A stretch of 41,366 bases of DNA from a virus, in the IMG/VR virus record IMGVR_UViG_3300046516_000328, positions 1 to 41,366 of that record; one strand, given 5' to 3'. Shown in pieces: positions 62 through 35,445 of this stretch (position 1 is its first letter; every line of letters starts with the position of its first letter). The notes beneath the pieces are model-generated. The model did not search any database and was not told the DNA's origin. It was given only the letters and a program-made list of their open reading frames with translations. Both the position numbers and the translations under genes were made by a program.

Positions 62-100
62 TTTTATTATTCCTTGCTTGACATAATAAGGTTTATCACT

Positions 101-120
101 TGTGGATAAGGTTATCCACA
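101..120. promoter_or_regulatory. Inverted pair of perfect DnaA boxes
   Basis: The sequence TGTGGATAAGGTTATCCACA holds two consensus DnaA boxes facing each other and separated by two bases. TTATCCACA is the high-affinity consensus for DnaA. The same boxes lie about 60 bases upstream of the 60-aa gene, so DnaA could also affect its expression. Confidence 0.85.
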
Positions 121-122
121 TA

Positions 123-200
123 CCGCAGTGCTGCGGCATATCGGCCAGAACATACCGCACGGGTGCGGCACATTTCGCCGGATATACCGCACGGGTGCGG
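123..200. repeat. Three 14-bp palindromes at 32-bp pitch (iterons or centromere sites)
   Basis: The sites are CCGCAG-TG-CTGCGG at 123-136 and CCGCAC-GG-GTGCGG at 155-168 and 187-200. Start-to-start spacing is exactly 32 bp both times, about three helical turns, so bound proteins would sit on one face of the DNA. They lie between the DnaA boxes and the end of the wHTH gene. They could be Rep iterons or a partition site; the sequence alone does not decide. Confidence 0.8.
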
Positions 201-223
201 CACTAATAAGAAGTAAGATTTCT

Positions 224-787
224 CTAAGATTTAGGGGCCAGCTTTCGCTTGATTTCTGCAATCGCATCTTGCGATACAGACGAGCCTTCGACTACAACGT
301 TCTGAACATTCTGAACATTGTTGTCGCCAATTTGCAACGACAGGTTGATAACGATCTGCGGACCAGTCGGCGTGCCGTTCTTAGCGAATTCCTTCAGTTC
401 GTTAAGGAAGTCTTGTAAGCCAGTCGGGACATACGGAACCGATGCGGTTCCGGCAGGCGTCCGATCGCTCTTAGTCACAAGCGGAAGCTGCTCGGTGAAC
501 CGGTAACGGTTCCGCTTGCGGTTCTCCGGGTCTTTGTCCCAATCGAGCAATTTAAGCTCCCTCAAGCGGCGCAGCGCGCGTTCGACGGTATCGCGAGAAG
601 TCTTCAGGCGTTCGGCCAGCGTGTCGACGCCAGGGAACGCCGTTCCGTTATTCAAGTCCGTATAGGTCTTCAGCATGACATATACCGCGATAGCGTTTAT
701 CCCCATCGCATCAAGCGGCGTGCTTCTCAGAACGTGGACCCATATCGTATCGGCGTCCAATTCATCCCAAAGCTGGATCTGGTTCAT
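224..787 (-). CDS. Winged-helix DNA-binding protein, candidate plasmid Rep or copy-control protein
   Basis: This 187-aa protein has a winged helix-turn-helix in its N-terminal half (about residues 28-82), with the HTH_36-type pattern FPGVDTLAERL followed by SRDTVERALRRL. The C-terminal part is unlike anything I know and contains an Asn/Val-rich run (about residues 150-168). It is the last gene of the ParA operon, its start overlaps the RHH gene by ATGA, and it ends 24 bases from the nearest origin palindrome. The position suggests a replication initiator or origin-binding regulator. I see no RepA, RepB or TrfA signature, so Rep function is inference and a plain transcription regulator is the alternative. 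Confidence 0.8.
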   Translation of the reverse strand: MNQIQLWDELDADTIWVHVLRSTPLDAMGINAIAVYVMLKTYTDLNNGTAFPGVDTLAERLKTSRDTVERALRRLRELKLLDWDKDPENRKRNRYRFTEQLPLVTKSDRTPAGTASVPYVPTGLQDFLNELKEFAKNGTPTGPQIVINLSLQIGDNNVQNVQNVVVEGSSVSQDAIAEIKRKLAPKS

Positions 788-1065
788 GCCTCCACGCCCC
801 GCGCGCGCAGCATCAATCGGATCTCCTTTTCGATAGCGCGGCCGGCAATGCTGTTCATGCTCTCGTCTTCCGAGTACAGCGCCAAGTCTCGCAGCAGTTC
901 GTAAAGGTCAGCGCGGATTCGCAAATTGATCTGACGATACGGTATCTTCGGCGGCCTTTTGCGCCAGTCTGCGCCCTGCTCTGCCTGCGGCGTGTCGATG
1001 GCATCCTGCGCCTTCCTGAGCCGTTCCAGTGCGTCTGCTCCGGTCGCTTGCATGGGCTTATTCAT
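784..1065 (-). CDS. Ribbon-helix-helix partition partner of ParA (ParG-like)
   Basis: This 93-aa protein begins with ATG inside the end of parA (ATGAATAA, 8-bp overlap). It has a flexible, charged N-terminus and a C-terminal ribbon-helix-helix of about residues 45-90, with strand INLRIRADL followed by two helices. In type Ib partition (ParF/ParG) a small RHH protein next to a short ParA binds the centromere and represses its own operon. The order (parA then RHH gene) and the size fit that class. The likely DNA targets are the TGTAGCA cluster at 2087-2112 or the palindromes at 123-200. The upstream in-frame extension to 1179 overlaps parA and was rejected. Confidence 0.85.
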   Translation of the reverse strand: MNKPMQATGADALERLRKAQDAIDTPQAEQGADWRKRPPKIPYRQINLRIRADLYELLRDLALYSEDESMNSIAGRAIEKEIRLMLRARGVEA

Positions 1066-1708
1066 TGCCGAAAATCTCCGTGTACAGGTTGTCGATCTCG
1101 ACCGATGCCTTCGCGTCGTAGTCCTTGCTCGGCAGCTCGTGAACGCCCTTCCCTTCCTCGTAAGCCTTCTGGAACGCAACCCGATCGCAGATGCGGCCGT
1201 CTAGCACGCGCAGAACGTCTTTGAACGGCTCGAAGCCTGCAAGGAACCGTTTGTACTGGTTCGAACTAGGGTCGACCATGTTCAGAACAACGGCAACGTC
1301 CTTCGTATCCTCGATCGCTGTATTGACGCGCCGGATCATCGTTGCAAAGTCTGGAACGGTGCTTAGATCGGCCGGTGACGGCTTCAGCGGGACGATCACC
1401 CTATCCGCCAGTACCATCGCCTCCCGAAAGTCGCTCGTGTCTTTTCCGCCAATGTCGACGAGAACGGTATCGAACTTCTCGCGCAGAGATACCAAGTCGC
1501 GCGCCAGATCCTTGCCGCGTGGGATGCAGAGCATTTCGGGCTCGATCCCTGCCACCGTGCGAACGGCGCACCACTTGGCTGTTGTCTGCTGGCTATCTAG
1601 GTCGACCAAGAGCACGCGATGACCGTGCGACGCGCGCAACGCGCCAAGGTTCTCGACTATCGTGCTTTTCCCGACGCCACCCTTCTCCGCCCCCACGGTT
1701 ATCAGCAT
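1058..1708 (-). CDS. parA: ParA-type partition ATPase
   Basis: This 216-aa P-loop ATPase of the ParA/MinD family carries the deviant Walker A box KGGVGKST at residues 9-16, the VLLVDLDSQ motif near residue 35 and the VLVDIGGKD motif near residue 85. Its short length, with no N-terminal HTH, is that of type Ib ParA (ParF-like) proteins, which spread on the nucleoid and move plasmid copies apart using an RHH adaptor. The start ATG overlaps the stop of the 105-aa gene upstream, and its own stop overlaps the RHH gene. Such a gene in a phage points to plasmid-state lysogeny. Confidence 0.95.
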   Translation of the reverse strand: MLITVGAEKGGVGKSTIVENLGALRASHGHRVLLVDLDSQQTTAKWCAVRTVAGIEPEMLCIPRGKDLARDLVSLREKFDTVLVDIGGKDTSDFREAMVLADRVIVPLKPSPADLSTVPDFATMIRRVNTAIEDTKDVAVVLNMVDPSSNQYKRFLAGFEPFKDVLRVLDGRICDRVAFQKAYEEGKGVHELPSKDYDAKASVEIDNLYTEIFGNE

Positions 1709-2019
1709 GATTTGCTGCTCGCGGACTTTTCAACGCCGCGCCACGGGCTATCTTGTTCAAGAGATTCCAATGCAAACGGGGCATATTCCCAAACAGAACC
1801 ATTCCAGTAAGCCAAGTCGGCGCTCGAATTGAACTTCCGTTCGTAAAAGCCGGCGCGAGTAGGCTTCACGCTTCCGGGGAACCAGGGCGTGCGATTCATC
1901 TCGTCCCCGCGGATTGCAACGAAATTGCGGCGAGTGGCGAGAATGGCGCGCTCGTAATCGTCGAGCGTTGGATTTAGGCTTAGCATCGAGACTTTCCGGT
2001 CAAGGTTCTTTATCAGCAT
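1702..2019 (-). CDS. Small YWNG-motif phage protein, first gene of the par operon
   Basis: The 105-aa product is chosen to start at 2019, where GGAAGGA lies just upstream; the longer frame to 2118 would run through the promoter. Its centre reads TPWFPGSVKP, then GFYER, then YWNG, and it ends with PWRG. The same layout (W-F, P, G-Y-E, Y-W-N-G, W-R-G) occurs in the 76-aa protein at 7972-8202, so the two are distant paralogues of a phage family of unknown function. It overlaps parA by 7 bases and shares its promoter, which makes it a part of the maintenance operon. Confidence 0.8.
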   Translation of the reverse strand: MLIKNLDRKVSMLSLNPTLDDYERAILATRRNFVAIRGDEMNRTPWFPGSVKPTRAGFYERKFNSSADLAYWNGSVWEYAPFALESLEQDSPWRGVEKSASSKSC

Positions 2020-2051
2020 GATTCCTTCCCTCTTTCTTAGTGTGTGACTAG

Positions 2052-2080
2052 ATACTAGCCACGCATACAAGAAAGCGCAA
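2052..2080 (-). promoter_or_regulatory. Promoter of the par operon
   Basis: On the minus strand, TTGCGC (2075-2080) and TAGTAT (2052-2057) are separated by exactly 17 bases, and the first start codon is about 33 bases beyond the -10 box. This would allow the 105-aa gene, parA, the RHH gene and the wHTH gene to be expressed in the lysogen independently of the repressed early promoter. Confidence 0.55.
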
Positions 2081-2086
2081 GGGGAA

Positions 2087-2112
2087 TGTAGCACCGTTGC
2101 TACAGTGCTACA
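2087..2112. promoter_or_regulatory. TGTAGCA operator cluster upstream of the par promoter
   Basis: TGTAGCA (2087-2093) and TGCTACA (2098-2104) form a perfect inverted repeat with a 4-bp spacer, and a further TGCTACA follows at 2106-2112 after one base. The cluster sits 7 bp upstream of the -35 box. Type Ib partition systems place RHH binding sites or the centromere exactly here, so this is the first candidate target of the RHH protein encoded at 784-1065. Confidence 0.6.
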
Positions 2113-5483: not shown

Positions 5484-5860
5484 CAAGCCTCCGCCACCAT
5501 AACGATGCACTGGCCGCCTTTGACGATCGGACCGCGTGAGACGTGCAGCTCGTCTATCTGGCTGTCGTCATCGAATACGCCTGCATGCATCAGCGCATCC
5601 AGCCCGGCCTTGCAGAAGTTGTCGAGATCCCTGCGGCGCTTGTCGCCACCGCATACGCGCATCGCGACGAACAGACGGGAATCGCCAAACTTCTTCGCAT
5701 TGTGTTCCGCGACGATCTCTGCGACGCGCTCGCGGAAGGTCTTGCCGGCCGCGGTGATGTACATGCCGTGTGGCGACTTCCGCCAATAATTGTTCACGCT
5801 TGGGGGAAGTGGGAGAACTAGAAGCTGTGAATCCCCGTATAACTTCGATTGATCGGTCAT
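5483..5860 (-). CDS. rusA: RusA-type Holliday junction resolvase
   Basis: The 125-aa product matches RusA in length and in its acidic active site: RRDLDN (residues 76-81) and DDDSQID (97-103), with LPLPPSVNNYWR at the start. RusA homodimers cut Holliday junctions made during phage recombination and replication. Its ATG overlaps the stop of the +1 reading frame lying over dcm (ATGA at 5857-5860), while the dcm stop itself is 10 bases upstream; this matters for the overprinting question. Confidence 0.93.
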   Translation of the reverse strand: MTDQSKLYGDSQLLVLPLPPSVNNYWRKSPHGMYITAAGKTFRERVAEIVAEHNAKKFGDSRLFVAMRVCGGDKRRRDLDNFCKAGLDALMHAGVFDDDSQIDELHVSRGPIVKGGQCIVMVAEA

Positions 5861-6654
5861 GCTGCGTTCTTAACCTCGTGATAGCAAATCGAATGCTGCT
5901 GCTGCCACTCTTGAAACTTGCCCGTTTCCAAGGGCTTTAATGCGGTCCACCCGATTGGCCATCCCATCAACCACTCGACCCATTCCGGGTTCAATTGGCC
6001 ACCTGCTGAAGTCGATAGGGCGGTTCCGCCCTGCGCGTACTTCTCTTTTCTGTGGCCTGTGTCGTCCGCAACTGGCGTCGGCCATAACTTCACTTCCGCA
6101 CTTAGCTTCGGCTCGCCGCGGCTGTTCCATTTGCCGGCCGCTCTCGAAACAGCGTCGTCCGCTACGGGCATTTGCCAGAATCCAGATGCGCTCTCGCAAA
6201 TGTGGAGCGCCGGCGTCGGCTGCAGATACGATTCCCCATTCCGCATCGAACCCCATCGAGGCCAAGTCTCCGAGTACTCTTCCAAGCCCCCTAGAAGTGA
6301 GCATTGGGGAGTTCTCCATGTACGCGAATCGTGGTCGAACCTCGCCAATAATCCGTGCCATTTCTGACCAGAGGCCGCTTCGCTCTCCGTCAAGTCCATC
6401 GCCTTTGCCGGCCGCGCTAATGTCTTGGCAAGGGAAACCTCCCGAAACCACGTCAACAATTCCTCGCCACGGTCGGCCATCAAAGGTTCTGACGTCATCC
6501 CAAATCGGGAAAGGCGGGAATGTTCCGTCGTTTTGTCGGGCCAGTAGAACGCTTCGGGCGTAGGCGTTGTATTCGACGGCGCAGACAGTGCGCCATCCAA
6601 GTAAGTGGCCTCCGAGAATTCCGCCACCAGCGCCCGCGAACAATGCCAGCTCAT
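5857..6654 (-). CDS. Overlapping +1-frame ORF lying over dcm (possible overprinted gene)
   Basis: A 265-codon frame begins 4 bases after the dcm start (ATGAATGAGC) and covers the whole of dcm in the +1 frame. It ends in an ATGA overlap with rusA, as most genes in this operon do. One Shine-Dalgarno (GAGGAATAA) serves both starts, at about 4 and 8 bases spacing. The product is Trp/Ser/Pro-rich, with SETWPRWGSMRNG (about residues 129-141) and NPEWVEWLMGWPIGWTAL (about 222-239). I recall similar translations annotated as hypothetical proteins in other phages. Conservation could be a by-product of dcm, so expression is not proven. The unusual codon choice in dcm is a hint of constraint from both frames. 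Confidence 0.5.
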   Translation of the reverse strand: MSWHCSRALVAEFSEATYLDGALSAPSNTTPTPEAFYWPDKTTEHSRLSRFGMTSEPLMADRGEELLTWFREVSLAKTLARPAKAMDLTESEAASGQKWHGLLARFDHDSRTWRTPQCSLLGGLEEYSETWPRWGSMRNGESYLQPTPALHICESASGFWQMPVADDAVSRAAGKWNSRGEPKLSAEVKLWPTPVADDTGHRKEKYAQGGTALSTSAGGQLNPEWVEWLMGWPIGWTALKPLETGKFQEWQQQHSICYHEVKNAA

Positions 6655-6658
6655 TCAT
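5870..6658 (-). CDS. DNA (cytosine-5-)-methyltransferase
   Basis: The 262-aa product has the C5-methyltransferase motifs in order: FAGAGG (motif I, residues 7-12), GFPCQDIS with catalytic Cys77 (motif IV), ENSP at 115-118 (motif VI), HLRERIWI near 155 (motif VIII) and GNGQV at 244-248 (motif X). The stretch between VIII and X is short, so the target recognition domain is small. It would methylate cytosine in phage DNA, probably against host restriction. Hand counting gives about 16 GGA to 10 GGC for Gly and 13 CGA to 6 CGC for Arg, unlike the GGC/CGC-rich neighbours. An entire second reading frame lies over it. Confidence 0.93.
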   Translation of the reverse strand: MNELALFAGAGGGILGGHLLGWRTVCAVEYNAYARSVLLARQNDGTFPPFPIWDDVRTFDGRPWRGIVDVVSGGFPCQDISAAGKGDGLDGERSGLWSEMARIIGEVRPRFAYMENSPMLTSRGLGRVLGDLASMGFDAEWGIVSAADAGAPHLRERIWILANARSGRRCFESGRQMEQPRRAEAKCGSEVMADASCGRHRPQKREVRAGRNRPIDFSRWPIEPGMGRVVDGMANRVDRIKALGNGQVSRVAAAAFDLLSRG

Positions 6659-10036: not shown

Positions 10037-10248
10037 TTCGGTTCCTTGCTAACGTGGACGTACATCTGCGCAAGGCTGGTGTGGTTTGAATCAGGGTCAA
10101 GCCCAAGGCGATTGCACATCATGTATGCGGACGTTGATCCGAACCCGAATGTCTCCATCGCCAGTACCAAGTTCGGCATGCGCGAACGCTTCACGATGCG
10201 GCGAACGTTGGCAAGAACCAGCGCGTCTCGCTTATCCTGCTCGCTCAT
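10033..10248 (-). CDS. 71-aa hypothetical protein downstream of the helicase loader
   Basis: The start at 10248 overlaps the loader gene stop (ATGA), and the stop overlaps the next start (ATGA). Residues 1-20 form a basic helix (MSEQDKRDALVLANVRRIVK); the middle has METFGFGSTSAYMMCNRLGL, which could be a helix-turn-helix reading of sequence. No family is recognised with confidence. It might be a small DNA-binding or replication accessory protein given its position after dnaC and the O-like gene. Confidence 0.68.
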   Translation of the reverse strand: MSEQDKRDALVLANVRRIVKRSRMPNLVLAMETFGFGSTSAYMMCNRLGLDPDSNHTSLAQMYVHVSKEPK

Positions 10249-11042
10249 GCGGCCTCCGAATCCAGCCCTGCCACATCGCGCGACTGGCGGCGGTGCGACT
10301 CCCAATCAAAAAGGACCGACACGCCAGATTCGTCAAGGCGGTCCCAAAAGCGCTCGCCAACGTAGCTCTTAAGCTCTTTCGCGCCAATGTTCGTGAGCAG
10401 GATAGTCGGCCGGCAATTCAGGCGACGCGCTTCTAGCAGCTCGTGAAGGGTGCGCTCTTCGTCGGCTGTCCCGCGCTGGACGCCGATCTCGTCAATAATC
10501 ATTAGGTCGATTTGCTCGAACTGCTTCAGCATTTGTTCTTCGGTCATTTCCGAAGACTTCGCCCAAGTGCTGCGGATCTTCGTGAAAAGCCGGGTGATCG
10601 ACGTGAAGTAGGCGGTATAGCCGCGCGCCATCACTTGATTAGCTGCCGCGCATGCAAGGTGCGTCTTGCCAGTGCCGCGCCGTCCAGCGCCAACAAGAAC
10701 GGTCCCGGCCTTCAGATGCGACGGGAAGGTGTCAGCGAAGCGTTTGAACCTTTCGAGGGCAACGCGCTTGCCTTGGGTATCGGCGTCATAGTTTGCAAAT
10801 GACCGGTCACGCAGCAACGCAGGGATGCCCGCTTGCTCAAGACGCGCTTCGATCTTTGCCTGACGCTCTGCGCGCTCTTTCTCGGCAAAGGCTGCGGCCT
10901 CGCGGTCTGCATCCTCTTGCGAGCATGTAGGGCAGCGCGTGATCTTGATAACGCGATCGCCAAGTGCTATCGAGCGGATAGGGAAAGCGCCGTGTTTTAG
11001 GCAAGATCCCCTTTCCTCCGGTGTGGCTAATGAAACATTCAT
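10245..11042 (-). CDS. dnaC: DnaC-like replicative helicase loader
   Basis: The 265-aa product is an IstB/DnaC-type AAA+ ATPase with Walker A GAGRRGTGKTH (about residues 118-128), Walker B IDLMIIDEIG (about 178-187) and the sensor region ILLTNIGAKEL. The N-terminal domain has a Cys/His set (C14, H17, C37, C40) as in DnaC-like proteins with a zinc site. It would load host DnaB onto the origin opened by the O-like protein encoded just upstream, as lambda P or DnaC does. AAAGGAACCGTC precedes the ATG. Confidence 0.93.
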   Translation of the reverse strand: MNVSLATPEERGSCLKHGAFPIRSIALGDRVIKITRCPTCSQEDADREAAAFAEKERAERQAKIEARLEQAGIPALLRDRSFANYDADTQGKRVALERFKRFADTFPSHLKAGTVLVGAGRRGTGKTHLACAAANQVMARGYTAYFTSITRLFTKIRSTWAKSSEMTEEQMLKQFEQIDLMIIDEIGVQRGTADEERTLHELLEARRLNCRPTILLTNIGAKELKSYVGERFWDRLDESGVSVLFDWESHRRQSRDVAGLDSEAA

Positions 11043-11073: not shown

Positions 11074-11778
11074 TTAGAACGTAAAACCTTGGCTGTAGTC
11101 CATGTCGTCGAGCGACTTCGGCTGCTTCAATGATACACCGTTCGCTTTATTTCGTGTCGAAGAAAAACGCTTGTCGTTGCGAATCCACGTCCGGAAAGCT
11201 GCCGTCCAATCCTTGTAAGTCGACCCCTTCGCCAGGTGGTAGTCACGGAAGCTGTCAATCAGGTCGTCAGGAGCGCTCAAGCCGTTCTCTGTCGCCCACT
11301 TGCGCATCTCGTCTGTCACGGCAAAATCTGCTGGCAGGGCTACGGCTCTTTTTATTTCCTTTGGATGGTTCTTTCCTATGGTTAATTCTGGGTGAACCTG
11401 CTTCACCCCCGAGGGTGAACCTCCTTCACCCATGGGTGAACCTCCTTCACCCCCCGACAGATCATTCTCCGGCTCAGGTCCAGCGTTGCTTGCAAGGGCA
11501 AGATGGTTCGGAACCTGAAGGTAAAACAGGTTTGATTGCTGCCGGCCTTCCTTGTTGAAACGCTTCTCCCGCTTTAGCCAGCCGGCGTCTTCCGCCAGTC
11601 CGACATGCTCGATGACGCTGCGCGAGGAAAGGGAAGTCAGAGATGCTAGGCGGGCGTACGACGGGAATGCCGGATCGCCCATGTCGTTGACGTGCATATC
11701 GAGCGCCACCAGGACGAGCTTCGTCGAGGCGGCTAACTTCGACTGCATGACAGCCTTTTTGTAAGTCCAGATACTCAT
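11074..11778 (-). CDS. O-like replication initiator with internal origin
   Basis: The 234-aa product has an N-terminal winged helix (about residues 10-85, with FPSYARLASLTSLSSRSVIE) and a C-terminal DnaT/O-like domain (about 150-215, PADFAVTDEMRKWATENGL and YKDWTAAFRTWIRNDKRF) that in relatives contacts the helicase or loader. The hinge between them (about residues 109-130) is Gly/Ser/Glu-rich because its DNA carries three palindromic iterons. This is how the lambda O gene is built. The start is the ATG overlapping the Cro-like gene stop (ATGA); the upstream extension to 11955 is a shadow. Confidence 0.88.
   Translation of the reverse strand: MSIWTYKKAVMQSKLAASTKLVLVALDMHVNDMGDPAFPSYARLASLTSLSSRSVIEHVGLAEDAGWLKREKRFNKEGRQQSNLFYLQVPNHLALASNAGPEPENDLSGGEGGSPMGEGGSPSGVKQVHPELTIGKNHPKEIKRAVALPADFAVTDEMRKWATENGLSAPDDLIDSFRDYHLAKGSTYKDWTAAFRTWIRNDKRFSSTRNKANGVSLKQPKSLDDMDYSQGFTF
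11341..11452. other. Lambda-style origin inside the O-like gene
   Basis: Three 19-bp sites of the form GGGTGAA-N5-TTCACCC lie at 11390-11408, 11413-11431 and 11434-11452. Each is a perfect inverted repeat with 7-bp arms, and the starts are 23 and 21 bp apart. On the coding strand they are followed by a purine- and A-rich stretch (11341-11389). Iterons then AT-rich DNA in the hinge of an initiator gene is the lambda ori arrangement. The O-like protein is the obvious binder. Confidence 0.8.
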
Positions 11779-12026
11779 TTGTCTTCCTTGCCGCTGCCGA
11801 CCAGATACGCCGGCAGATCGCGCAAGCCGAGCAGGTCGACAATCTTCATACCTTCGCCGGGCGCGACTTCCTCGCTTGCTTTCGCCAACTCGATCGCCTT
11901 GTTGACGGACACACCGTGTACTCCGTTCTTGATGTGATACCAGGACTGCAGGCAAAGCCCGATCTTGTCGCGCATCTGGCGGACGACCTTCGGACCCTGC
12001 TTATCGTGGAACTCTTTTGCGTTCAT
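11775..12026 (-). CDS. Cro-like HTH protein, first early gene
   Basis: The 83-aa product starts at 12026 after AGGAGATCAC. Its N-terminal half contains a helix-turn-helix reading KVVRQMRDKIGLCLQSWYHI, then NGVHGVSVNKAIELAKAS, the pattern of YdaS/Cro-type phage regulators in which the recognition helix starts near SWYHIK. The upstream extension to 12089 crosses the promoter. It is the first gene transcribed from the early promoter at 12061-12089 and faces the divergent HTH repressor gene, as cro faces cI. Confidence 0.85.
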   Translation of the reverse strand: MNAKEFHDKQGPKVVRQMRDKIGLCLQSWYHIKNGVHGVSVNKAIELAKASEEVAPGEGMKIVDLLGLRDLPAYLVGSGKEDK

Positions 12027-12280: not shown

Positions 12281-12745
12281 ATGACCGTTGAACCAATCGA
12301 GCGAACCCGACAAAAAAACTTTCTTTGGCTTTTTGAGCAATTCAAAGAGGAAACAAGAAAGCAATGGCCGGATCAGCCTGAGTACGGAATGCTCAAGATG
12401 TTTGCCGAGCGGCTAGGCATGTCGCAGCTCTATGTCTCGCAGATCAAGAACGGCGGCCCAAAGGAAGAAGGGAAGAACGGCCGCGTCATCGGGACCAAGC
12501 TGGCAGACAAGATAGAGAAGGCGCTTGGGCTACCTGGCGGGTGGATGGATACCCAGCACGACGCGGAGCCCCCCAAGAGGCTGCAATCGGCTCCTGAGGC
12601 TACTGGCGAAGACGAAGGGCTCAAGGATGTACTCGATATGGTCTCCGGTCTATATTCGCACTCACCGGACGCCACCCGCGCAGCACTCATTAAGGTCATG
12701 GGCGCAATCGTCACAGGAAAGCCGATCAAACCAGCCTCTCGCTAA
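12281..12745 (+). CDS. HTH phage repressor (CI-like)
   Basis: The 154-aa product has an XRE-like helix-turn-helix (about residues 15-70): FLWLFEQFKEE, MFAERLGMSQLYVSQIKNGG, then VIGTKLADKIEKALGLPGGW. The C-terminal third (about 100-145) is an amphipathic helical region suited to dimerisation. There is no S24 peptidase domain and no Ala-Gly or Cys-Gly cleavage site before one, so RecA-stimulated self-cleavage is unlikely. AAAGGAACCCAAG precedes the ATG. It diverges from the Cro-like early gene, so it is the likely immunity repressor. Confidence 0.85.
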   Translation: MTVEPIERTRQKNFLWLFEQFKEETRKQWPDQPEYGMLKMFAERLGMSQLYVSQIKNGGPKEEGKNGRVIGTKLADKIEKALGLPGGWMDTQHDAEPPKRLQSAPEATGEDEGLKDVLDMVSGLYSHSPDATRAALIKVMGAIVTGKPIKPASR

Positions 12746-18863: not shown

Positions 18864-20195
18864 ATGGGGAAGATATTCACTAAAACGGCATACCCGCTTT
18901 TGCTGCCGGCGCATCCTTCTGGCACTGTAGTAACGACAGCTAGACAGCGGATCGTCGACGCGAGCGGGAACGGCTGGTACTTGACGCCCGATGGGCACAT
19001 CACGCAGAACGGCGTCAATACGTCGACTGGCAGCCCCAGCCCATTCGCTACGCTGCTGTGGCTGAACGGCCAGATCTACTGTCAGAACACGTCGGGAACC
19101 TGGTATCAGCAAACGCAGACTTCGCCGTGGACGCCGCTAAGTGGCGATCCGCGCACGGCGAGCATTATGCCGTTTTGGGGCGTCAATGGTCATCTGACGT
19201 GGAGCCAACCGGCCTACACGTCGAACAATTGGCCGAACAATGCGACGGCGATCCGCGATCTAGGGGCGATGACGTACCGCAACGGGTACAGCGCGAACTA
19301 CAACGCGTCGACTGGCGCGGTTACGTCGAGCGACGGAAACACGTTCTTGTCGTTCATGAACGCGTACCCCGATATCACGCTCGTGCCTGTCCTGCTGCCG
19401 CAATGGGGTACGTCGTATGACGGCACGACCGGCACAGAAGCGACCGCCTACACGATCGGCTATAACCTCGGGCGCGATGCGGCGCTGAAGCTCGGCGGCA
19501 AAGTGCCGTACTTCGAATGCGGCAACGAGTACGAAAACGGCTACGTCAGCAATTCGGGTAACTCGAAGACCGACTACGACAACGCGGCGTTCTTGCGCGC
19601 GCGCGGCTCCGTGCGCGGAATGATCGCCGGCATTAAATCGGTCAATGCGAACTACAAGATCGGCGCTCCTGCTATCTCGTGGGTTCACTTCGGCTTTCTG
19701 GATATGCTCGCCGACGGTTCGACGCCTGCCGCGACGACGACCTACGACGCGTCCAAGATCGTTACGTGGGACTACACGAACTTGCACGTCTACACGCAGA
19801 ACAGCGCGGGCGCGGACAACTTCGAAGCGCTGCAAGGTCAGCCGATTACCAACGGCATCACGCGTGCCTGCGGTTACGGAAAGCCGATCGTCATTTCCGA
19901 GTATGGCGTCAACACGTATAAGAACGTGAGCGGCACGTGGACGGCGCTCTATGCGAACGAGGCAGCGATTCAGGCGGCGCTCGTTTCGAGCGGCTATCTG
20001 CTCGACAAGTGGTACGCGATCCGCAATAGCTACTCGCAACCGATTATCGGCTGCATGCTCTACCAGCTCGCGGACGCCGCATCAGACGGATCGAACACGA
20101 ACGAAGTGAACTTCGGCCTGCTCGGTACTGACTCGACCACGCAGAAGGGCCGCTATACCGCCGTGAAGAACTTCATTGCGGCGCATCCGGTATAA
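18864..20195 (+). CDS. Tail-associated glycoside hydrolase, clan GH-A-like
   Basis: The 443-aa product begins with a 100-residue beta module (GNGWYLTPDGHITQNGVNTS, then GTWYQQTQTSPWTPL), seen in tail proteins. A TIM-barrel-like enzyme domain follows, with the clan GH-A acid/base motif FECGNEYE (E222) and the nucleophile motif PIVISEYGVNT (E346), 124 residues apart. Glu on strands 4 and 7, after Asn and in SEYG, is how retaining GH-A enzymes such as GH5, GH39 or GH79 are built. It should cut a host surface glycan during adsorption. The substrate cannot be read from the sequence. Confidence 0.78.
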   Translation: MGKIFTKTAYPLLLPAHPSGTVVTTARQRIVDASGNGWYLTPDGHITQNGVNTSTGSPSPFATLLWLNGQIYCQNTSGTWYQQTQTSPWTPLSGDPRTASIMPFWGVNGHLTWSQPAYTSNNWPNNATAIRDLGAMTYRNGYSANYNASTGAVTSSDGNTFLSFMNAYPDITLVPVLLPQWGTSYDGTTGTEATAYTIGYNLGRDAALKLGGKVPYFECGNEYENGYVSNSGNSKTDYDNAAFLRARGSVRGMIAGIKSVNANYKIGAPAISWVHFGFLDMLADGSTPAATTTYDASKIVTWDYTNLHVYTQNSAGADNFEALQGQPITNGITRACGYGKPIVISEYGVNTYKNVSGTWTALYANEAAIQAALVSSGYLLDKWYAIRNSYSQPIIGCMLYQLADAASDGSNTNEVNFGLLGTDSTTQKGRYTAVKNFIAAHPV

Positions 20196-20210: not shown

Positions 20211-21923
20211 ATGGCTCAAGTTCCACTCGCGCAGACTCAGTGTGTTCCGATCCCGCTTATGACGGGCGGAACCAGCACGACCGATGACGGCAACGTTCAA
20301 GGCGAATTCGCCGTTAATCTGAAGCTGCGCCAGATCCCGACGAAGGATAAGCCCGGTACATGCACGTCTCATGGTGGCATTACGCAATGGGTCGGCGCAT
20401 CGATCGCAGGTGAGTCCGACCGCGGCGGCATCCTGTGGAACGGGCTCATGTACCGCGTACAGGGCTCGTCGGTCTATAGCTTCGACACGAACGGCGTACG
20501 AACGGGTATCGGCACGGTCGCCAATGACGGCCAGAAGGTGCGGCTCGACTACACGTTCGACAATCTCGTCATCGTGAGCGGCGGCAAGATGTATTACTAC
20601 GCGCCGAACCTTGGCTATGGTCAGATCACGTCGGTGGCGATCGCCAGCGGTGGCATTGGCTATGCTGTGGGCGACACGATCGCGCTCGGCGCGATGGGGC
20701 TGTATGCGACGCTCAAGGTCACGACTACTGGCACAGATGGCGTTCTGACGGGCGCTCAGGTCATCTCCAGCTATCCGTTCCTAAACCCATATCGGCCGGT
20801 CAATCCGATGCCGCAGACTCTCTCGAGCGGCGGCGGCACAGGCGCCACGTTTAACGCGACGTGGAAGGATCTCACGCACTTTATCCAGGTCGATCTAACG
20901 TCTATCGGCATCACGAACATTGTCGACGCTGCATTCATGGCCGGCTATGTGATGGTGACGGACGGAACGAGCGTCTATAACAGTTCGCTCGTCAATACGG
21001 CTTTCTTCCCTAGCTACTTCGGCAGCGCCGAATACGATCCTGACGGTATCTCTGCGATCTACAAGCTGAACAACCAGCTTTACGTGCTCGGCAAGAACAC
21101 GACGCAGACGATGGCGAATACGGGCGGTAACAATTTCCCGTTCACCGTGCAGCAGTCGTACACGTTCGACATTGGCTGTGTGTCGCGTCAGACGATGTGC
21201 TACTTCAATCGCACGCTTGCCTGGATCGGTGGCGGCCGGAACATGCCGAACGGCGTCTGGATGCTGAACGGCAATGCGCCGGTCAAGATCTCGTCAGCCG
21301 CAGTCGATTACGAGTTGTCGAAGCTGTCTGCCGCGCAGGTGGCGGTCGTGACGCTTGAAGCGATCTCGTTCGAAGATTCTGAATTCCTCTACGTGCATCT
21401 GCCAGACAAGACGCTGCTGTTTGACGCCACGGCAACATCAGGGCTCGGCGTGAAGTTCTGGACACAGCTTAACAGTGGAGCAACGGCACATGATTTCTAC
21501 CGCGCGCGCAATTTTGTCCGCTTTAACGGCATGTGGTGCTGCGGCGATCTTGCTGACAATCGCGTCGGCTTTCTGGATGGCGCTACTGGCGGTCACTACG
21601 GCGCTCCTGTTATGCACCGCAGTTCTAGCCCTATGGTCATGCTGCCGCTCGCTTCTGCCGGCCTGCGCTCGGTCGAGCTCAAGTGCATCACCGGGCAAGC
21701 GGGCGACACCTCGCGCATCGCAATGACGTACTCGTCTGACGGGCTGCGCTGGTCGCAGACGCGCTACGCCAAGGCAGTGACGCGCGGCGGCTATGGCAGG
21801 CGCATACGCTGGCTGCCGGGCGGTCTGACGCGCAACAAGTTGCAGGTGCGCGTCGAACACGTGACGAACCAGCATTGCACCTGGTTTGGCCTCGATCTCG
21901 AACTTGAACCGCTGGCGTGCTGA
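20211..21923 (+). CDS. P22 gp10-like packaged DNA stabilisation protein
   Basis: The 570-aa product fits the P22 gp10 family in length and layout: MAQVPLAQTQCVPIPLMTGG at the start, GEFAVNLKLRQIPTKDKPGT, the loop SDRGGILWNGLMYRVQGSSV and repeated beta strands to the end. In P22, gp10 forms the tail hub below gp4 and carries gp26 and tailspikes. An insertion near residues 140-190 (YGQITSVAIASGGIGYAVGD) resembles a phage tail domain found elsewhere. The start follows AAAGG at 4-base spacing (20203-20211). Confidence 0.87.
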   Translation: MAQVPLAQTQCVPIPLMTGGTSTTDDGNVQGEFAVNLKLRQIPTKDKPGTCTSHGGITQWVGASIAGESDRGGILWNGLMYRVQGSSVYSFDTNGVRTGIGTVANDGQKVRLDYTFDNLVIVSGGKMYYYAPNLGYGQITSVAIASGGIGYAVGDTIALGAMGLYATLKVTTTGTDGVLTGAQVISSYPFLNPYRPVNPMPQTLSSGGGTGATFNATWKDLTHFIQVDLTSIGITNIVDAAFMAGYVMVTDGTSVYNSSLVNTAFFPSYFGSAEYDPDGISAIYKLNNQLYVLGKNTTQTMANTGGNNFPFTVQQSYTFDIGCVSRQTMCYFNRTLAWIGGGRNMPNGVWMLNGNAPVKISSAAVDYELSKLSAAQVAVVTLEAISFEDSEFLYVHLPDKTLLFDATATSGLGVKFWTQLNSGATAHDFYRARNFVRFNGMWCCGDLADNRVGFLDGATGGHYGAPVMHRSSSPMVMLPLASAGLRSVELKCITGQAGDTSRIAMTYSSDGLRWSQTRYAKAVTRGGYGRRIRWLPGGLTRNKLQVRVEHVTNQHCTWFGLDLELEPLAC

Positions 21924-21924
21924 T

Positions 21925-22338
21925 ATGGCGAATCTAACCCGTATCCCGCAAATGTTCCTGACGGCCGCGCTGAACGGCGATTCAGCCGTTGCAGATGCTA
22001 TCGGAAACGTCGTCAACGGCAGCGCAATGAATGGCTACGATCCGCAGCCTACATCGGGCAGCGCTTCAGGTGTATGGGCGTCGATTGGAACGCTCATTTA
22101 CGTGGAGATAACTCTTACAATAACGGTATCGGTAAAACCTTCAGTACAACTTCCTTTTACTCACCAAGGATTGAGCAGCCAGAGGGGAATCATTCCTGGC
22201 GTATCAGCCGCAGGTGTCGCGATAACGGGCGTAGTTGGTCCAGAGTCCGCGATTCTTACATTGGGCCGCTATGACGGCGCAGCGCTGGACGCAGGAACGT
22301 ACTTTTTAGCTGGAACATATCAATCTAGTGTGGGGTGA
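21925..22338 (+). CDS. 137-aa hypothetical virion protein
   Basis: The start at 21925 (MANLTRIPQMFLTAALNGDS) lies one base after the gp10-like stop; the upstream start at 21886 overlaps that gene. The product has a Ser/Gly-rich hinge, then a beta-rich region (VEITLTITVSVKPSVQLPFT) and GRYDGAALDAGTYFLAGTYQ near the end. The position between gp10 and ejection proteins is where P22 has gp26 (tail needle), but no coiled-coil needle is visible. Function not assigned. Confidence 0.7.
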   Translation: MANLTRIPQMFLTAALNGDSAVADAIGNVVNGSAMNGYDPQPTSGSASGVWASIGTLIYVEITLTITVSVKPSVQLPFTHQGLSSQRGIIPGVSAAGVAITGVVGPESAILTLGRYDGAALDAGTYFLAGTYQSSVG

Positions 22339-22341
22339 CAC

Positions 22342-23019
22342 ATGGTAGCAGCAGCAGTAGGGGCTACGGCCGTTGCGGGGCTCGCAGGCTCTGCAATGTC
22401 GGCAAGCGCGGCGGGCGATGCTGCGGACGCTCAGTCGCAATCGGCAGCGAACAATCTCGCGCTCGCGCAGCAGCAGTACAACACGATGCAAACGCAGATC
22501 TCGCCGTATCTGGCGGCCGGGCAAACCGGCATGAGTGGATACGAGAACTTGCTTGGCGCGAATGGCGCAGACCAGCAGGGCGCGGCGATCAATCAGATTA
22601 AGTCAGGCGCGCAGTATCAGGGCGACATTCAGAGCGCGAACGAGAACGTTCTAGCCAACGCATCAGCGACGGGCGGCTTGCGCGGTAGCAACGTGAGCAA
22701 CACGCTTGCTAACACGTCTATCTCGACGCTTAACGGGCTTATCACGAGCAAGCTGGCGGGGTACGGAACGCTAATGAGTAATGGGCTCAACGCGATCAGC
22801 GGATCTCAGGCCGCAAGCAATGCTTACCAAGGTGCCGCGACGAGCGCGAACAACCAGACGGCCAATGCTGCCACGTCTTACGCCGGCGCGCTGTCGAACT
22901 CCGTCAATTCCGGGCTCGGTTCGATCACGCAAGGGATCAACGCATACTCAAGCGCCAAAGCTGCGCCGACCTACGGCACGACCGCGGCCGGTAATCCTAT
23001 TCTCTTTACGGGGGCGTAA
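22342..23019 (+). CDS. Gp7-like DNA ejection protein
   Basis: The 225-aa product begins with a hydrophobic Ala/Gly-rich segment (AAAVGATAVAGLAGSAMSAS, residues 3-22), then a Gln/Ala/Asn-rich helical body (NNLALAQQQYNTMQTQISPY, GGLRGSNVSNTLANTSISTL). This is the form of P22 gp7-type proteins, which leave the virion with the DNA and help to make a channel through the cell envelope. Its stop overlaps the start of the next ejection gene (TAATG). Confidence 0.8.
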   Translation: MVAAAVGATAVAGLAGSAMSASAAGDAADAQSQSAANNLALAQQQYNTMQTQISPYLAAGQTGMSGYENLLGANGADQQGAAINQIKSGAQYQGDIQSANENVLANASATGGLRGSNVSNTLANTSISTLNGLITSKLAGYGTLMSNGLNAISGSQAASNAYQGAATSANNQTANAATSYAGALSNSVNSGLGSITQGINAYSSAKAAPTYGTTAAGNPILFTGA

Positions 23020-24383
23020 TGGCCGATTTGATCGACTTTTCAAACATCGGCAAAGGTCTTGATGCCCAGATGGGCAACGCCGCGCAGCAAGGGCAGAAAA
23101 TCGGCTTCAATGCCGCAACGATGGGGTCTAGCATTCAGGCGACGAACGCATCGAACGCGGCGACCGCATCGAACGCCGGCTTGCAGATCAACAACAACCA
23201 GCGTCAGCAAGCGTTTCAGATGGAATCGCAGGCGCTGGCGTCGAACCCTAACGCGACGTCCGCGGACTATCAGGCGCTTGCGAACAAGTATCCAGAGTTT
23301 GCGGCGACGGTCAACCAGAACACGAACCAAGCGCAGACGAACTGGCAGAACATTCGTCAGCGCATGTCGTCTGATGCTGTGGCCACAGTCGCTGGCATGC
23401 AGGCAAAGCTGCAAAACAATGATGTTCCGGGCGCGCTCGATCTGCTCGAGCAGCGCGCAGTGCGTCAAGAGGGTGCGGGCGACACGCAGGGCGCAGCGTC
23501 GACGCGCGCGTTCGAAGATCTAATCCGCACTAAGCCAGACCAGGCTAAGCAGATCACGTCGCAGATCCTGAATGCAGGCAGCGCGAACACGGCTGGCGAG
23601 CAGTACGCGAACCAAGCTAACCAGGCGCGCGCAGTGGTAGCGCAGCAGACGGTTCCGGCAGCGGTGGCGCAGGCGCAGGCGAACGCATCGACGGCGAGCA
23701 CTCAGGCGGCATACGCACCGGCAGAGCGAGCGGCAGGTGTTCAATCGACGCAGGCTGGGACTGGTCTTACGCAGGCGCAGACGGCCCAAGTGGTTCAGAA
23801 CACGGCTACGCCGCCTGCTGTTGTTGATGCGTCGAACAAAGAATACTCGGCGCGCGACACGAATCAGCAGCTCTCCGAGCAGTCTGGCGAACTGGCGAGC
23901 GCGTTCAGCCAGATCGAGAACGGTGGCACAAGTGGCGTACTCGGCGCGACATGGGATCAAGCTGCGCGCAAGTGGACAGGCGACACGTCCAAGCTGCAAC
24001 AGTTGCGCCAAGAGGCGGCGCAGCTTGTCACGCAAGCCGAGACTGCGAGCATGGTGAACGGCAACTTTACCGACGCATCGACCGCTCGCGCAGTGCAGAA
24101 CGTGCCGCAAGTGACGGACAGTCCGCAAGCATGGGCGACTTATCTGCAAGCGCGCAACAAGTTCTTGGCCGCTAAAGCAGCGTGGTCTGGTGCGCGCGGA
24201 GACTGGATGCGTGGGAATGTCAACGGCTCGATGGGCGCAGCTAACCGAGATTTCACGATTCAACTCCCTAATGGACAGGCGGTGCTTGTGAAGGCGGGCG
24301 ACAGCTTCACGCAGTTCGCGAAGAAGGCGGCTCCGAGCTACTACACGGCGCCGGGCGCTAACTCTTTCGACCCGACGAAATGA
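23019..24383 (+). CDS. Gp20-like DNA ejection protein
   Basis: The 454-aa product is Ala/Gln/Asn-rich and helical (AAQQGQKIGFNAATMG, AGLQINNNQRQQAFQMESQA), with long coiled stretches of about residues 185-330. The C-terminal 70 residues (FTIQLPNGQAVLVKAGDSFT) are beta-like. Size, composition and place after the gp7-like gene match P22 gp20-type internal proteins that are injected with DNA. The stop overlaps the next start (ATGA). The assignment rests on these traits and on gene order, not on a specific motif. Confidence 0.75.
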   Translation: MADLIDFSNIGKGLDAQMGNAAQQGQKIGFNAATMGSSIQATNASNAATASNAGLQINNNQRQQAFQMESQALASNPNATSADYQALANKYPEFAATVNQNTNQAQTNWQNIRQRMSSDAVATVAGMQAKLQNNDVPGALDLLEQRAVRQEGAGDTQGAASTRAFEDLIRTKPDQAKQITSQILNAGSANTAGEQYANQANQARAVVAQQTVPAAVAQAQANASTASTQAAYAPAERAAGVQSTQAGTGLTQAQTAQVVQNTATPPAVVDASNKEYSARDTNQQLSEQSGELASAFSQIENGGTSGVLGATWDQAARKWTGDTSKLQQLRQEAAQLVTQAETASMVNGNFTDASTARAVQNVPQVTDSPQAWATYLQARNKFLAAKAAWSGARGDWMRGNVNGSMGAANRDFTIQLPNGQAVLVKAGDSFTQFAKKAAPSYYTAPGANSFDPTK

Positions 24384-27300
24384 CGAACAATACCTTTCCG
24401 GTTAGCTACAAAGATCCCGTCTACGCTGCGGCCGATCAGAGCGCGTCCGAAGCGGCCGGCATTCCGCCCGGTCTGCTGACGAGCATTCGCGTGGCAGGCG
24501 AGAAGTCGAACGCGAACCAGACGTCGAGCTCGGGCGCGACTACGCCTTACCAGTTCACGCCGTCCACGCGCGACCTTATCATCAAGAAGTACAAGATTGA
24601 TCCGCTATCCTCGCCGCAGGCTGCCGCACTCGGTGCCGCGTATCTGCTGAAAGAGGGCATTCAACGCACCGGCAGCGCAGCGGGTGCGGTGACGCAATAC
24701 ATCGGCGGCACTGATCCTAAGAATTGGGGCGGCCAGACGCGCGCTTATACCAATCGGGTGATGGCGCATTTCACCGGCAACGGCGGACAGGATACGCCGC
24801 AGCCTGAGCCTATTCCGAATGCTCCGCTTCCTAGCGCCGCATCGTATGGGCTAGATCCGTCTGTCGTCGGCACGGATAGCGCGCCGCAACAGCAGCCGAC
24901 CGCAGCCGTTCAAGCGCCGCAGCCTATAGCGCCTGCTGCTGGCGTCAACAATCAGATCGTCGCCGACTACAACGCCGGACGCCTGTCGCCTGAAGATATG
25001 GCGGCTGTCGAGCAGCGCGCGTCGAAGATCGGCATCGATCCGAGCCAATTGCAACGACCGCAAACCGTCCCGGGAACCGGACAACCCGGCCCGGGAACCG
25101 CTGCGCCGCCCGGGTCGACCGCTCCGGCTCAATCTTCGAAGCCGATCGGCCCGCAGACGCTCGCCGCAATGCAGGCTGGCAAGCTGACGCCTGACCAACT
25201 GGCGACGATCAAGGCAGGGCTCGACAATGGCACGCTGACGATGCCGCAGAGCGCTCCTGCGCCTGCTGCGCCCGCTCAAGATCCGACCGGCCCGCAGAAC
25301 GATGGTTACTTTGCCGCTGGCTTGCCTGCGTCTGCCGCGCCTACTGCGCCATTTACTCCGACGACAGCCGCTAAGAACGGCTCTACGTGGTCCGACGTGG
25401 CAGAGAAGGCGGTTGGCGGTGTCGCAGGCAGTCTGCTTGACATTGCGTCCGCAGGCGGGCGTCTGGTAGGCGCCAATGACTTCGCGGACCAGGCGAACGC
25501 CGCGCACAAGCAGATCGACGATCGGATGGCGCAGGACACGAACAACAGCACGGCCGGCAAGGTCGCAGGCTTCGTTGGCAGCGCTGCGCCTTATGCGGCT
25601 ATGGGCGGCGCATCGCTTCCCGGCGCTGTAGCGGGTGGCGCAGTCGCTGGCGCGGCTCCGTCTATCGCACAGAACAAGTCAGGCGCGGAAGTGGCGCGCG
25701 ACGCGGCTGTTGGTGGCGCTGCTGGTGCGGCCGGCATGGGGCTTGGCAAGGTAGCGGGCAAAGCCGTATCCGCCATCGCTGAGAACCCGACTGTCGCCAA
25801 GGGCATCGCCCGCTTGCAGCAAATGTTCGGCGGCACACCTTCTGAGGCTACGAAGGTAGCAGCCAGCGGCGGGGCGGCTGACGCTCAGGTCGCAGCAGAC
25901 ATTGCCAGCGCGACGGGTCACAAGCCGGCTGATCTGGCGTCGAAGATCGAATCTGCCCCTGCTCCGCATACGCCGGGCTACACGCCGACAGCGGCTGAAA
26001 TGGCGAACGATGCGAACGTCACGACCTTGCAGAAGGCAGCGACGAACGCGAACCCGTCGACGTTTGCCAACGCCAGCGCGAACAATGACGAGGCAATTGC
26101 GAAGTCTCTGGCGAAGCCGGCGACGGGCGAAGTTTCCGGAACGGGGGCATACAGTGACGGCGGCAAGTGGGACGCACACTACACGACTCAGAAAAATACA
26201 GATGGCTCCGTCTCTCTAATCAGAGACATCGGAAACGGTCCGGAGCATTTGAATGTCGATGGATTGTGGAGTAAGGGGCTTCCAGCAAGAACGCGCGTCC
26301 CTGGCGCACAACAGATCGCGGGGCCTGAAGCGTTTACGTCTGTCGAGCATGCCATAGCCGCTGCGCGCGATGATATAGAGGGAATGGGCGGGAAGGCGCT
26401 AGACTCAGGCGCCACGCCGGGAGCGCCGGCCGCTCCGCAAGCGGCGGAACAGGCGGGCGAGGCAGCCGCGCAAAAGAGCGACGCACTGGCCGCGCAAGGG
26501 CAGAGCGAAGTTAATCCGCTGGAAAAGCACGTTACCGATCGCCTGCAAACTCCGCAATTCGAAGCGCCGGTCAAGCTCGCGCAGAAGATGGCGAAGGATC
26601 AGGGCTCGACCGTGTTCGACGACTTGCAGGCGGCGAAGCACGCAGAAGCAGCCAAGGCGCTCGACCAGATCACCGGCACGCCCGAAGAACTGGCGGCAGC
26701 GAAGGCATCGCGCAGCGCGGACGCGGCGGATAACTTCCTGCCAATGAACAAGTCGACGACGCTTGATTCTGACGCCTGGAAAGGTCTGGCAAACCGTCCG
26801 ACGTTCCGCGAGGCGATTGGCGAAGCGCAAGGCATCGCTGCTGACCGCGGTGAGCAAGCGGCAATCAAGGTCAATGAAGATGGCTCTGTGACGGCAACCG
26901 GGCGCGGCCTGCTCGACGCCAAGCAAGCGATCGACGGCCTGATCTCCAAGGCGTCAATGGCGGGCGACGCGTCGAAGGTCATGCGTTACAAAGCCGTCAA
27001 AGATGCGCTGCTCTCGGAAATGGATAACGCCTATCCGGAGTACGGCGCAGCTCGCGCGAAGTACGCCGAAGCCAGCGGCCCGATCGATGCAATGCAGGCA
27101 CTGCAAGCGCGCGTCAATGGCGCGGTCGATCCGGCAACGGGACAGGTCAACCCGGCCAAGCTCGTCAACACGATCAACAGCATCAAAGCCGAGCAGATGA
27201 AGCCCGGCATTCGCCCGGCCGACAAGGTTCCTGACGAGACGCTAAACGCGCTGGCCGCACTCGCGCAGCATCTGCAAAACAAGAACGATCTCACTGGCCT

Positions 27301-28177: not shown

Positions 28178-28185
28178 GACAGCCA

Positions 28186-28644
28186 ATGACAAAGCCAGTT
28201 TTCACCGTCGAGCGGTTTCAAGACGTCTACGACGAACTTTTGCCGCTGCTTCTTAAGCACTACGACGAGATCAGCCTGCATAAGCTCAAGGGCTATGACC
28301 TAAAGCCTAACGTCGCGCTCTACCGGGCGATGCAGGACGCGGACCAACTGACGATGATGATCGGCCGGCTTGATGGCCGCATCGTTGCCTACTTCGTCGT
28401 GTTCGTGCGCCCAAGCATCCACTACGGTGACTGCCTAGAAGGGATTGGCGACATTTTCTTTGTCGAACCCGGCCTGCGCGGAATGCTCTACGGACTGGCC
28501 TTGTTTGAGGCAACCGAGAAAGAACTGAAACGGCGCGGCGTCCGGTGCTTCATGGCCGGCGAGAAAGTCGCATTCCCCGCAAAGGCTCTCTTTGAGCGTC
28601 GCGGATTCGAAGAAATCGAACGGAAATATGCCAAATGGCTCTGA
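28186..28644 (+). CDS. GNAT-like acetyltransferase in the head module
   Basis: The 152-aa product has a GNAT fold order: early helices, LYRAMQDADQLTMMIGRLDG, strand IVAYFVVFVRPS, then the cofactor region DIFFVEPGLRGMLYGLALFE and the C-terminal FPAKALFERRGFEEIERKYA typical of N-acetyltransferases. Genes like this lie next to portal genes in many podoviruses, with unknown substrate; modification of a capsid or host protein is possible. The stop overlaps the portal start by 10 bases. Confidence 0.8.
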   Translation: MTKPVFTVERFQDVYDELLPLLLKHYDEISLHKLKGYDLKPNVALYRAMQDADQLTMMIGRLDGRIVAYFVVFVRPSIHYGDCLEGIGDIFFVEPGLRGMLYGLALFEATEKELKRRGVRCFMAGEKVAFPAKALFERRGFEEIERKYAKWL

Positions 28645-32203: not shown

Positions 32204-32775
32204 GCGCGCAGGTCGATGACCATTGACAGCCGGTCGGCTGACGACTCGTTGCGTACTTCGTGCATGAGATCGTTGCGGAAGTGAAACAACCGGCCGGTTA
32301 GCATCTGCAGCGTTTCGTCGCCGCTCGTGATGATCGCGCCCGGTTGCCCTTGGATGACCAGGTGAAAGCGCTTCCAGTACCGCGTATGTTCGGGCGTATC
32401 GACGTGCGCAAAGATCCGGCCGCCTGGCCGAACACGGTTAATCATCACGCGTCCGATGCGCGTTGCCTCCGTGAAGCGCGCAAGATCAAACACGAAGCCA
32501 TGCGCCTGCGTCAGCTTCGACCACGCAGGATAGGCGATCGACTCATGCTGATCGTAGCCCGGCAGCTTGTTCTGCTTGTATAGCTCGATCTCCTCCTCGC
32601 TCATTCCGGTCTGAATCTCCGGGAAGCGCAGCATGATCGTATCGGTGTCGCCAAACGGCCCTTGCGGATAATTGCGCAAGAACGTGTCAGCCGTCCATAA
32701 ATCCGGATCCATCGAGATCGCGAGCGACAGGGCGCTAACGTCCATGCCGTCTTTAATGATGTGGAAATTGCGCAT
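32200..32775 (-). CDS. Aspartyl/asparaginyl beta-hydroxylase-like 2OG-Fe(II) oxygenase
   Basis: The 191-aa product has a cupin-type double-stranded beta-helix with the iron triad H124-x-D126 (FAHVDTPEH) and H172 (NDLMHEVRN), and R182 placed to bind 2-oxoglutarate (DRLSMVIDLR). The phrase RPGGRIFAHVD is typical of aspartyl/asparaginyl beta-hydroxylases. It would hydroxylate an Asp or Asn residue in some protein. It is on the strand opposite to the whole late region, sits between TerL and scaffold and overlaps the two-TM gene. That is how a moron gene is placed. Starts upstream of 32775 are shadows. Confidence 0.87.
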   Translation of the reverse strand: MRNFHIIKDGMDVSALSLAISMDPDLWTADTFLRNYPQGPFGDTDTIMLRFPEIQTGMSEEEIELYKQNKLPGYDQHESIAYPAWSKLTQAHGFVFDLARFTEATRIGRVMINRVRPGGRIFAHVDTPEHTRYWKRFHLVIQGQPGAIITSGDETLQMLTGRLFHFRNDLMHEVRNESSADRLSMVIDLRA

Positions 32776-33912: not shown

Positions 33913-33920
33913 AGCATTCA

Positions 33921-33949
33921 TTGCTTTATATTTCGCAAAGTAGTAACAT
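33921..33949 (+). promoter_or_regulatory. Promoter for the coat gene
   Basis: TTGCTT (33921-33926) and TAACAT (33944-33949) are 17 bases apart, 9 bases after the scaffold stop. They would give a leader of about 160 bases with the hairpin at 33965-33996. A separate promoter would explain the higher need for coat than for scaffold. Confidence 0.45.
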
Positions 33950-33964
33950 GCGATAAAGCTAGAT

Positions 33965-35431: not shown

Positions 35432-35445
35432 GCAACGTGTTTCGG

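Follow-up and report, generated by a model that had tools for sequence, protein, structure and literature searches.

A P22-like phage of probable Burkholderiaceae hosts with a ParA partition cassette in the place of an integrase: a likely plasmid prophage

How is a temperate P22-like phage inherited when its virion genes lie beside a plasmid partition block and no integrase is recognised? The question was raised by a 41,366-nt stretch of viral DNA (the window, the whole stretch that was analysed). From the sequence of this phage and its relatives, we consider it probable, at about 0.86, that it is a temperate P22-like Burkholderiaceae phage whose prophage is a low-copy circular plasmid replicated by a winged-helix initiator.

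The circular genome and its phage genes

The window was a whole viral record and was complete. The first and last 127 bases were identical (1–127 = 41240–41366, exact), which gave a circle of 41,239 bp. Because the record was complete and circular, the absence of a gene from it was meaningful. The circle itself fits a plasmid and a headful-packaged, circularly permuted phage equally well. Circularity was rejected as proof of a plasmid: an integrase-bearing sister phage (G003) was also circular, and PLSDB also files integrase-bearing P22-like circles as plasmids (pAS51-4 and paNv_CH9). The integrase genes of pAS51-4 (L039) and paNv_CH9 (L041) call for caution in naming circular prophage records phage-plasmids.

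The right side of the genome was composed of a P22-type late region with head-tail adaptor, head closure, ejection, portal, TerL, scaffold, coat, spike and lysozyme genes. The virion and lysis gene set was complete, as in a phage-plasmid, and the P22-type portal, scaffold, coat and head-completion proteins identified the phage as P22-like, in agreement with the original prediction of such a set beside the partition block. The left side contained early genes on the minus strand, encoding NinB, RusA, a DNA methyltransferase-like protein, Gp157, SSB, Erf, a DnaC-like loader and an O-like initiator, followed on the plus strand by a small regulator and then a CI-like repressor. The O-like and DnaC-like genes formed a lytic replicon separate from the partition block, which the original prediction had left out. 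The main phage features were as follows.

10245–11042, minus strand: DnaC-like helicase loader for lytic replication (PHROG 50, 2e-70)
11074–11781, minus strand: second, O-like initiator for lytic replication (PHROG 1032, 5e-19)
12281–12745, plus strand: CI-like repressor, pointing to a temperate lifestyle (PHROG 12107, 1e-9; 53% identical in G001 and 67% in G527)
20211–32203, plus strand: P22-type head-completion, ejection, portal (28635–30932) and terminase (30929–32203) genes
33076–35431, plus strand: P22-type scaffold and coat (PHROG 648, 9e-41; PHROG 283, the coat family, 6e-76)
36750–39082, plus strand: tail spike and lysozyme
41118–41318, minus strand: small conserved gene in the interval between the late operon and the origin (65% identical in G001 and G015)

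Several other frames were observed. The 443-aa product of 18864–20195 (plus strand), within the late region, may be a glycoside hydrolase, on no more than the impression given by its sequence, and had weak relatives (23–28%) in some sister phages. The 224-aa gene at 32200–32874 (minus strand), between TerL and scaffold and opposite to the transcription of its neighbours, was conserved (67–95%) in every sister whose record covered the region, and was without a family match. The methyltransferase-like frame at 5857–6654 (minus strand) was matched by PHROG models in two stretches, was overlapped by a second long frame of the same strand (5870–6658) and may be frame-shifted; this region had an 80% DNA match to Manatee Spring phages. 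An 804-aa open frame at 34106–36520 (minus strand), antisense to the coat and fibre genes, is probably a composition artefact.

The partition genes, the winged-helix gene and the origin array

The block next to the origin contained the ParA, ribbon-helix-helix (RHH) and winged-helix genes on the minus strand, overlapping head to tail. Downstream of the winged-helix gene were three phased dyads and two DnaA boxes.

101–109, minus strand: DnaA box TTATCCACA, exact match
112–120, plus strand: DnaA box TTATCCACA, exact match, inverted relative to the first
123–136: dyad 1, CCGCAGtgCTGCGG, 14 bp, candidate Rep-binding site and start of a series with a 32-bp period
155–168: dyad 2, CCGCACggGTGCGG, 14 bp, 32 bp from dyad 1
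187–200: dyad 3, CCGCACggGTGCGG, 14 bp, 32 bp from dyad 2
224–787, minus strand: winged-helix protein of 187 aa, candidate plasmid replication initiator (HTH_36, 7e-10; PHROGs 'replication initiation protein', 1e-7)
784–1065, minus strand: RHH partner of 93 aa, candidate centromere-binding protein (74% identical in G001)
1061–1708, minus strand: ParF-like ParA partition ATPase of 216 aa (Pfam AAA_31, 1e-16, and CbiA; PHROG 164 'ParA-like partition protein', 7e-41)
1702–2019, minus strand: gene that separates ParA from the upstream dyad, with no counterpart detected in the ParA-type relatives G001, G002 and G015
2086–2113: 28-bp dyad ATGTAGCAC(10)GTGCTACAT, 5' of the par operon, candidate operator or centromere, with related TAGC-containing dyads upstream in relatives

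The ParA was short, began at the Walker region and had no N-terminal helix-turn-helix, and its closest match among solved structures was ParF (2e-8); the type Ib-like ParA of the original prediction agrees with these features. Its predicted RHH partner was also upheld as a candidate, on a weak PHROG match to 'Arc-like repressor' (0.0035) and on a structural model with predicted helices at residues 52–64 and 70–88 behind a flexible N-terminal tail, which we take to be a ParG-like arrangement. A Foldseek fold search with this model gave no significant match, with SegB at rank 2, and a search of the PDB with the sequence profile gave nothing useful. TAGC-based dyads were located upstream of ParA in most ParA relatives. 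In G002 and G527, which have other RHH proteins, the core of the upstream dyad differed from that of the window.

By sequence, the winged-helix protein matched generic winged-helix families only: HTH_36 and DnaD_N alone exceeded the curated cut-off, and the RepL, TrfA, Rep_3 and RepA_C profiles gave no family match. The fold search likewise returned a generic winged helix, and the C-terminal half of the model was of low confidence. The structures 4pql, 4pt7 and 5kbj matched with Z values of 8.2–9.3 along some 80 residues, on a level with many regulators. Two of these are titled 'Structure of initiator' (4pt7) and 'Structure of Rep-DNA complex' (5kbj) in the PDB; we take all three to be RepA_N-type initiators (pSK41/pTZ2162 RepA) with a winged-helix N-domain.

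In related ParA–RHH cassettes, the position of the winged-helix gene was filled by RepL (locus L004), TrfA (L009), Rep_3 (L011 and L013) or RepA_C (L012). The profile scores in this slot were 6e-31 and 4e-7 for RepL, 2e-30 for TrfA, 4e-35 and 2e-27 for Rep_3, and 9e-35 for RepA_C. The RepL cassette of L004 had a ParA 94% identical to that of the window, and the sister phage G002, with a different ParA, also carried RepL in the slot. In a separate case, a 62-kb viral contig in a Caballeronia-group genome (G018, which is contig C40 of G246; L137–L140) carried ParA–RHH with a Rep_3 initiator; this contig was not P22-like and had no exact end repeat.

The same array was found on the Polaromonas plasmid pA29BJ2 (NZ_MN657148), which shared the gene order of ParA, small protein and HTH_36 winged-helix protein (34% identical, 2e-15). 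Three 16-bp dyads 32–33 bp apart and the only two exact DnaA boxes of that plasmid were located at the same place. Unlike the window, pA29BJ2 is an ordinary 104-kb plasmid with catabolic, resistance and transposon genes and no annotated virion genes, and no other match to a known initiator was found among its scanned ORFs. The Acinetobacter baumannii replicon pRBH2-3 (NZ_CP110465) also contained the ParA, small protein and winged-helix trio in a circular replicon with phage genes, whereas it differed in its size of 75 kb, its N4-gp56 capsid and the absence of an exact DnaA box after the winged-helix gene. Known initiators take its slot elsewhere and the same array is present on an ordinary plasmid; on these grounds we regard the winged-helix protein as a probable initiator. 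The phage carries plasmid partition genes, recognised by homology, together with a putative replication gene, identified from the slot that it fills and from its homologue on a plasmid; the Rep-like protein of the original prediction gained support in this way.

The two DnaA boxes were the only exact ones in the whole circle, and a DnaA-box origin, as had been predicted, is consistent with their place beside the three dyads. The separate promoter of the same prediction was not recovered, since a scan of positions 1–2700 for a sigma-70 consensus found none. The dyads were rejected as stand-alone evidence, because such a triplet within 80 bp was present in 4 of 100 Markov-simulated genomes. An exact DnaA box was found at most 330 bp downstream of the winged-helix gene in 19 of 21 loci (expected, 0.0098 per locus), which include several diverged winged-helix groups but also many close relatives and are not 21 independent cases. 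What makes the array of dyads and DnaA boxes convincing is its recurrence next to divergent homologues.

Furthermore, the dyad sequence followed the winged-helix clade, with other dyads in other Rep clades. G526 and G527 had a winged-helix protein 99% identical to that of the window and the same dyads, despite a different ParA (26–29%) and virion (coat 32%). In the G001 group, the winged-helix protein was 34–37% identical and the dyads were GCCGCTnnnnAGCGGC; the Polaromonas dyads were CCCTTAnnnnTAAGGG. The retention of Rep and dyads with a different ParA and virion indicates that the initiator and partition cassettes are exchanged independently of each other and pass from one P22-like virion lineage to another. 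As a further observation, a second P22-like lineage (coat 31–32% identical; L186–L187 in G527 and L190–L197 in G528, G529, G531 and G532) had early-arm genes and ParA–winged-helix cassettes in common with the lineage of the window.

A plasmid prophage might also be maintained in the manner of lambda-dv by the O-like and DnaC-like replicon, with the winged-helix protein acting only as a regulator of the par operon. The resemblance of its domain to MarR/GntR-type regulators in both sequence and fold, and the presence of the second initiator gene (O-like, 11074–11781), are in favour of this explanation. We consider it unlikely, since bona fide plasmid initiators take the winged-helix slot in related cassettes, a plasmid with no other recognisable Rep (pA29BJ2) carries the gene, dyads and DnaA boxes follow it, and the fold search placed the initiator structures 4pt7 and 5kbj in its top group, level with regulators.

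Integrase and ParA types at one locus

No match to tyrosine integrase (PF00589) or serine recombinase (PF00239) was found in the window, while the same PF00589 search was positive for an integrase in every control genome and in seven sister phages. The tyrosine integrase by which P22-like phages usually, though not universally, integrate was therefore not found, no integrase or transposase appeared among the window ORFs scanned with PHROG, and no dif-like site was found in the window. The original prediction had found no integrase and named an overlooked one as grounds against it; the profile searches gave no such grounds.

Portal relatives with 76–95% identity were found in IMG/VR and in Paraburkholderia, Caballeronia and Robbsia genomes, which indicates a Burkholderiaceae host. 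Seven near relatives (G003–G009) had an integrase and no ParA. The window (G000), G001 (also a closed circle), G002, G015 and G547 had ParA and no integrase. None of the near relatives with the relevant region had both. G534 carried the winged-helix gene and no integrase, with no ParA match within its fragment, and the contig of a C. glathei relative ended inside the phage, so that neither module could be placed. In both types, the slot followed directly on the late operon and was read from the minus strand; in the integrase type it was occupied by the integrase, joined in several phages by a small excisionase-like gene. The ends of G002 (L109 and L111) both carried about 1.1 kb of the portal/ejection region, which was not an exact repeat and is possibly a strain mixture at a circular junction.

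Two integrase types (portal 79–80%), from Paraburkholderia sp. BL9I2N2 and Caballeronia (Burkholderia) turbans, were embedded in host contigs 1.16 Mb and 530 kb long. They had the same virion and gene order as the window, whereas their slot held an integrase, accompanied in C. turbans by a small excisionase-like gene, and they were chromosomal. An 11–12-bp GTTTCTAATAT core was found beside int and at the other end of these integrated sisters; a search of their ends for att sites as long exact repeats gave no repeat above 14 bp and only this core adjoining int.

Most early-arm genes also differed between the integrase and ParA types, and from this the exchange may be larger than the slot alone. 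When trees of virion genes were compared, the portal placed the ParA types on one side and the coat did not, with support too low for a count of switches. A DnaC-based search for the same early arm with an integrase gave only three short contigs, which were not informative.

Integration by an undetected route, through host XerCD or a highly divergent recombinase, with another purpose for ParA–RHH, is a highly improbable explanation. Several ORFs of the window have no family, and users of host recombinases exist among other phages, as is generally known. Against this, sensitive profile searches were negative in the window yet found the integrase in seven sisters, no dif-like site was present, and the 144, 58 and 398 host-group genomes searched yielded no ParA-type copy in a chromosome, their best ParA being 46% identical. 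An integrated copy had been named as the other ground against the original prediction; in the integrated relatives that were found, the same slot held an integrase and not ParA. The genomes searched included no host with the exact phage, and neither a lysogen nor a plasmid preparation of it was found. The low-copy circular plasmid that had been proposed for the lysogen is very probable in view of the either/or slot, the replacements in the Rep slot and the same array on a plasmid.

Proposed lifestyle and known systems

For the plasmid prophage, the following sequence of events is proposed. In the lysogen, the winged-helix protein (224–787) would bind the three phased dyads (123–200) downstream of its own gene, host DnaA would bind the two adjacent boxes, and replication would begin there. 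The ParF-like ParA and the RHH partner, bound to the 2086–2113 dyad, would segregate the plasmid and regulate the operon. On induction, the O-like/DnaC-like pair would drive lytic replication, and the DNA would be packaged by headful. The cassette occupies the place that close relatives use for an integrase, often with an excisionase-like gene; the two inheritance modules are alternatives. The least probable explanation, an essentially lytic phage that lost lysogeny and carries the cassette as a passenger, would suit DNA that may derive from virions with no plasmid state seen, but is opposed by the retained repressor and cro-like genes, by the intact cassette genes and by the recurrence of the cassette in many phages with independently exchanged parts, as selection predicts.

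More broadly, and somewhat more tentatively than for the plasmid prophage itself, we favour the reading that an undescribed replicon type (an HTH_36 initiator, three dyads 32–33 bp apart and DnaA boxes) is common to plasmids and phages. With exchangeable ParA–RHH pairs, it would serve P22-like Burkholderiaceae phages as a free-standing inheritance cassette that trades places with an integrase at a single locus and whose initiator and centromere specificities diversify. If true, this diversification is what one would expect where selection favours compatible plasmids among prophages that share a host. The set of genomes points to an unnamed, testable plasmid replicon in both plasmids and phages, and typing schemes built on known Rep families would miss such phage-plasmids. 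The text of a recent phage-plasmid typing scheme contains no mention of P22 or of podoviruses (PMC12977533).

Phage-plasmids, the P22-like phiSG1 and the int/parABS swap of mycobacteriophages are already known. The either/or integrase/ParA slot in P22-like phages is new here, as are an initiator-origin type for which no description was found in the literature and its occurrence on a non-phage plasmid. In cluster A mycobacteriophages, parABS replaces the integrase, a few phages add repA, and the prophage is extrachromosomal (Wetzel et al. 2020, PMC7157519; PMC6550527). They resemble the present phages in that related temperate phages have either an integrase or a partition cassette at the same locus, some with repA beside par, whereas they are unrelated actinobacterial phages with parB instead of an RHH protein, with mostly RNA-based origins and with no repeat motifs found at ori. 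The authors of PMC7157519 knew of no other closely related set and thought the switch unlikely for lambda-type circuits; the cluster A-type pattern is now found in P22-like phages, with genomes close enough for direct comparison.

Burkholderia phage KS14 has a ParA-bearing plasmid prophage, shown by plasmid preparation, and its relatives integrate (PMC3091744). Like the window, it is a ParA phage of a Burkholderiaceae host (ParA 33% identical), whereas it is P2-like, and the gene annotated in it for replication initiation lies some 2 kb away from parA on the other strand. Glacial phage-plasmids with ParA/ParB have also been reported from viromes (PMC4490671). The combination of a P22-type virion with plasmid maintenance had been called unusual, which is right, except for a partial precedent in Sodalis phage phiSG1 (NC_007902, DQ785801). 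This phage shares a P22-like virion (portal 37%), a circular record, a ParA (30%) and a RepA annotated together with a repeat-containing origin. In contrast to the window, phiSG1 has retained integrase-like genes, carries a RepA whose annotation notes similarity to the RepA of an Erwinia plasmid, and has four 17-nt repeats in its origin.
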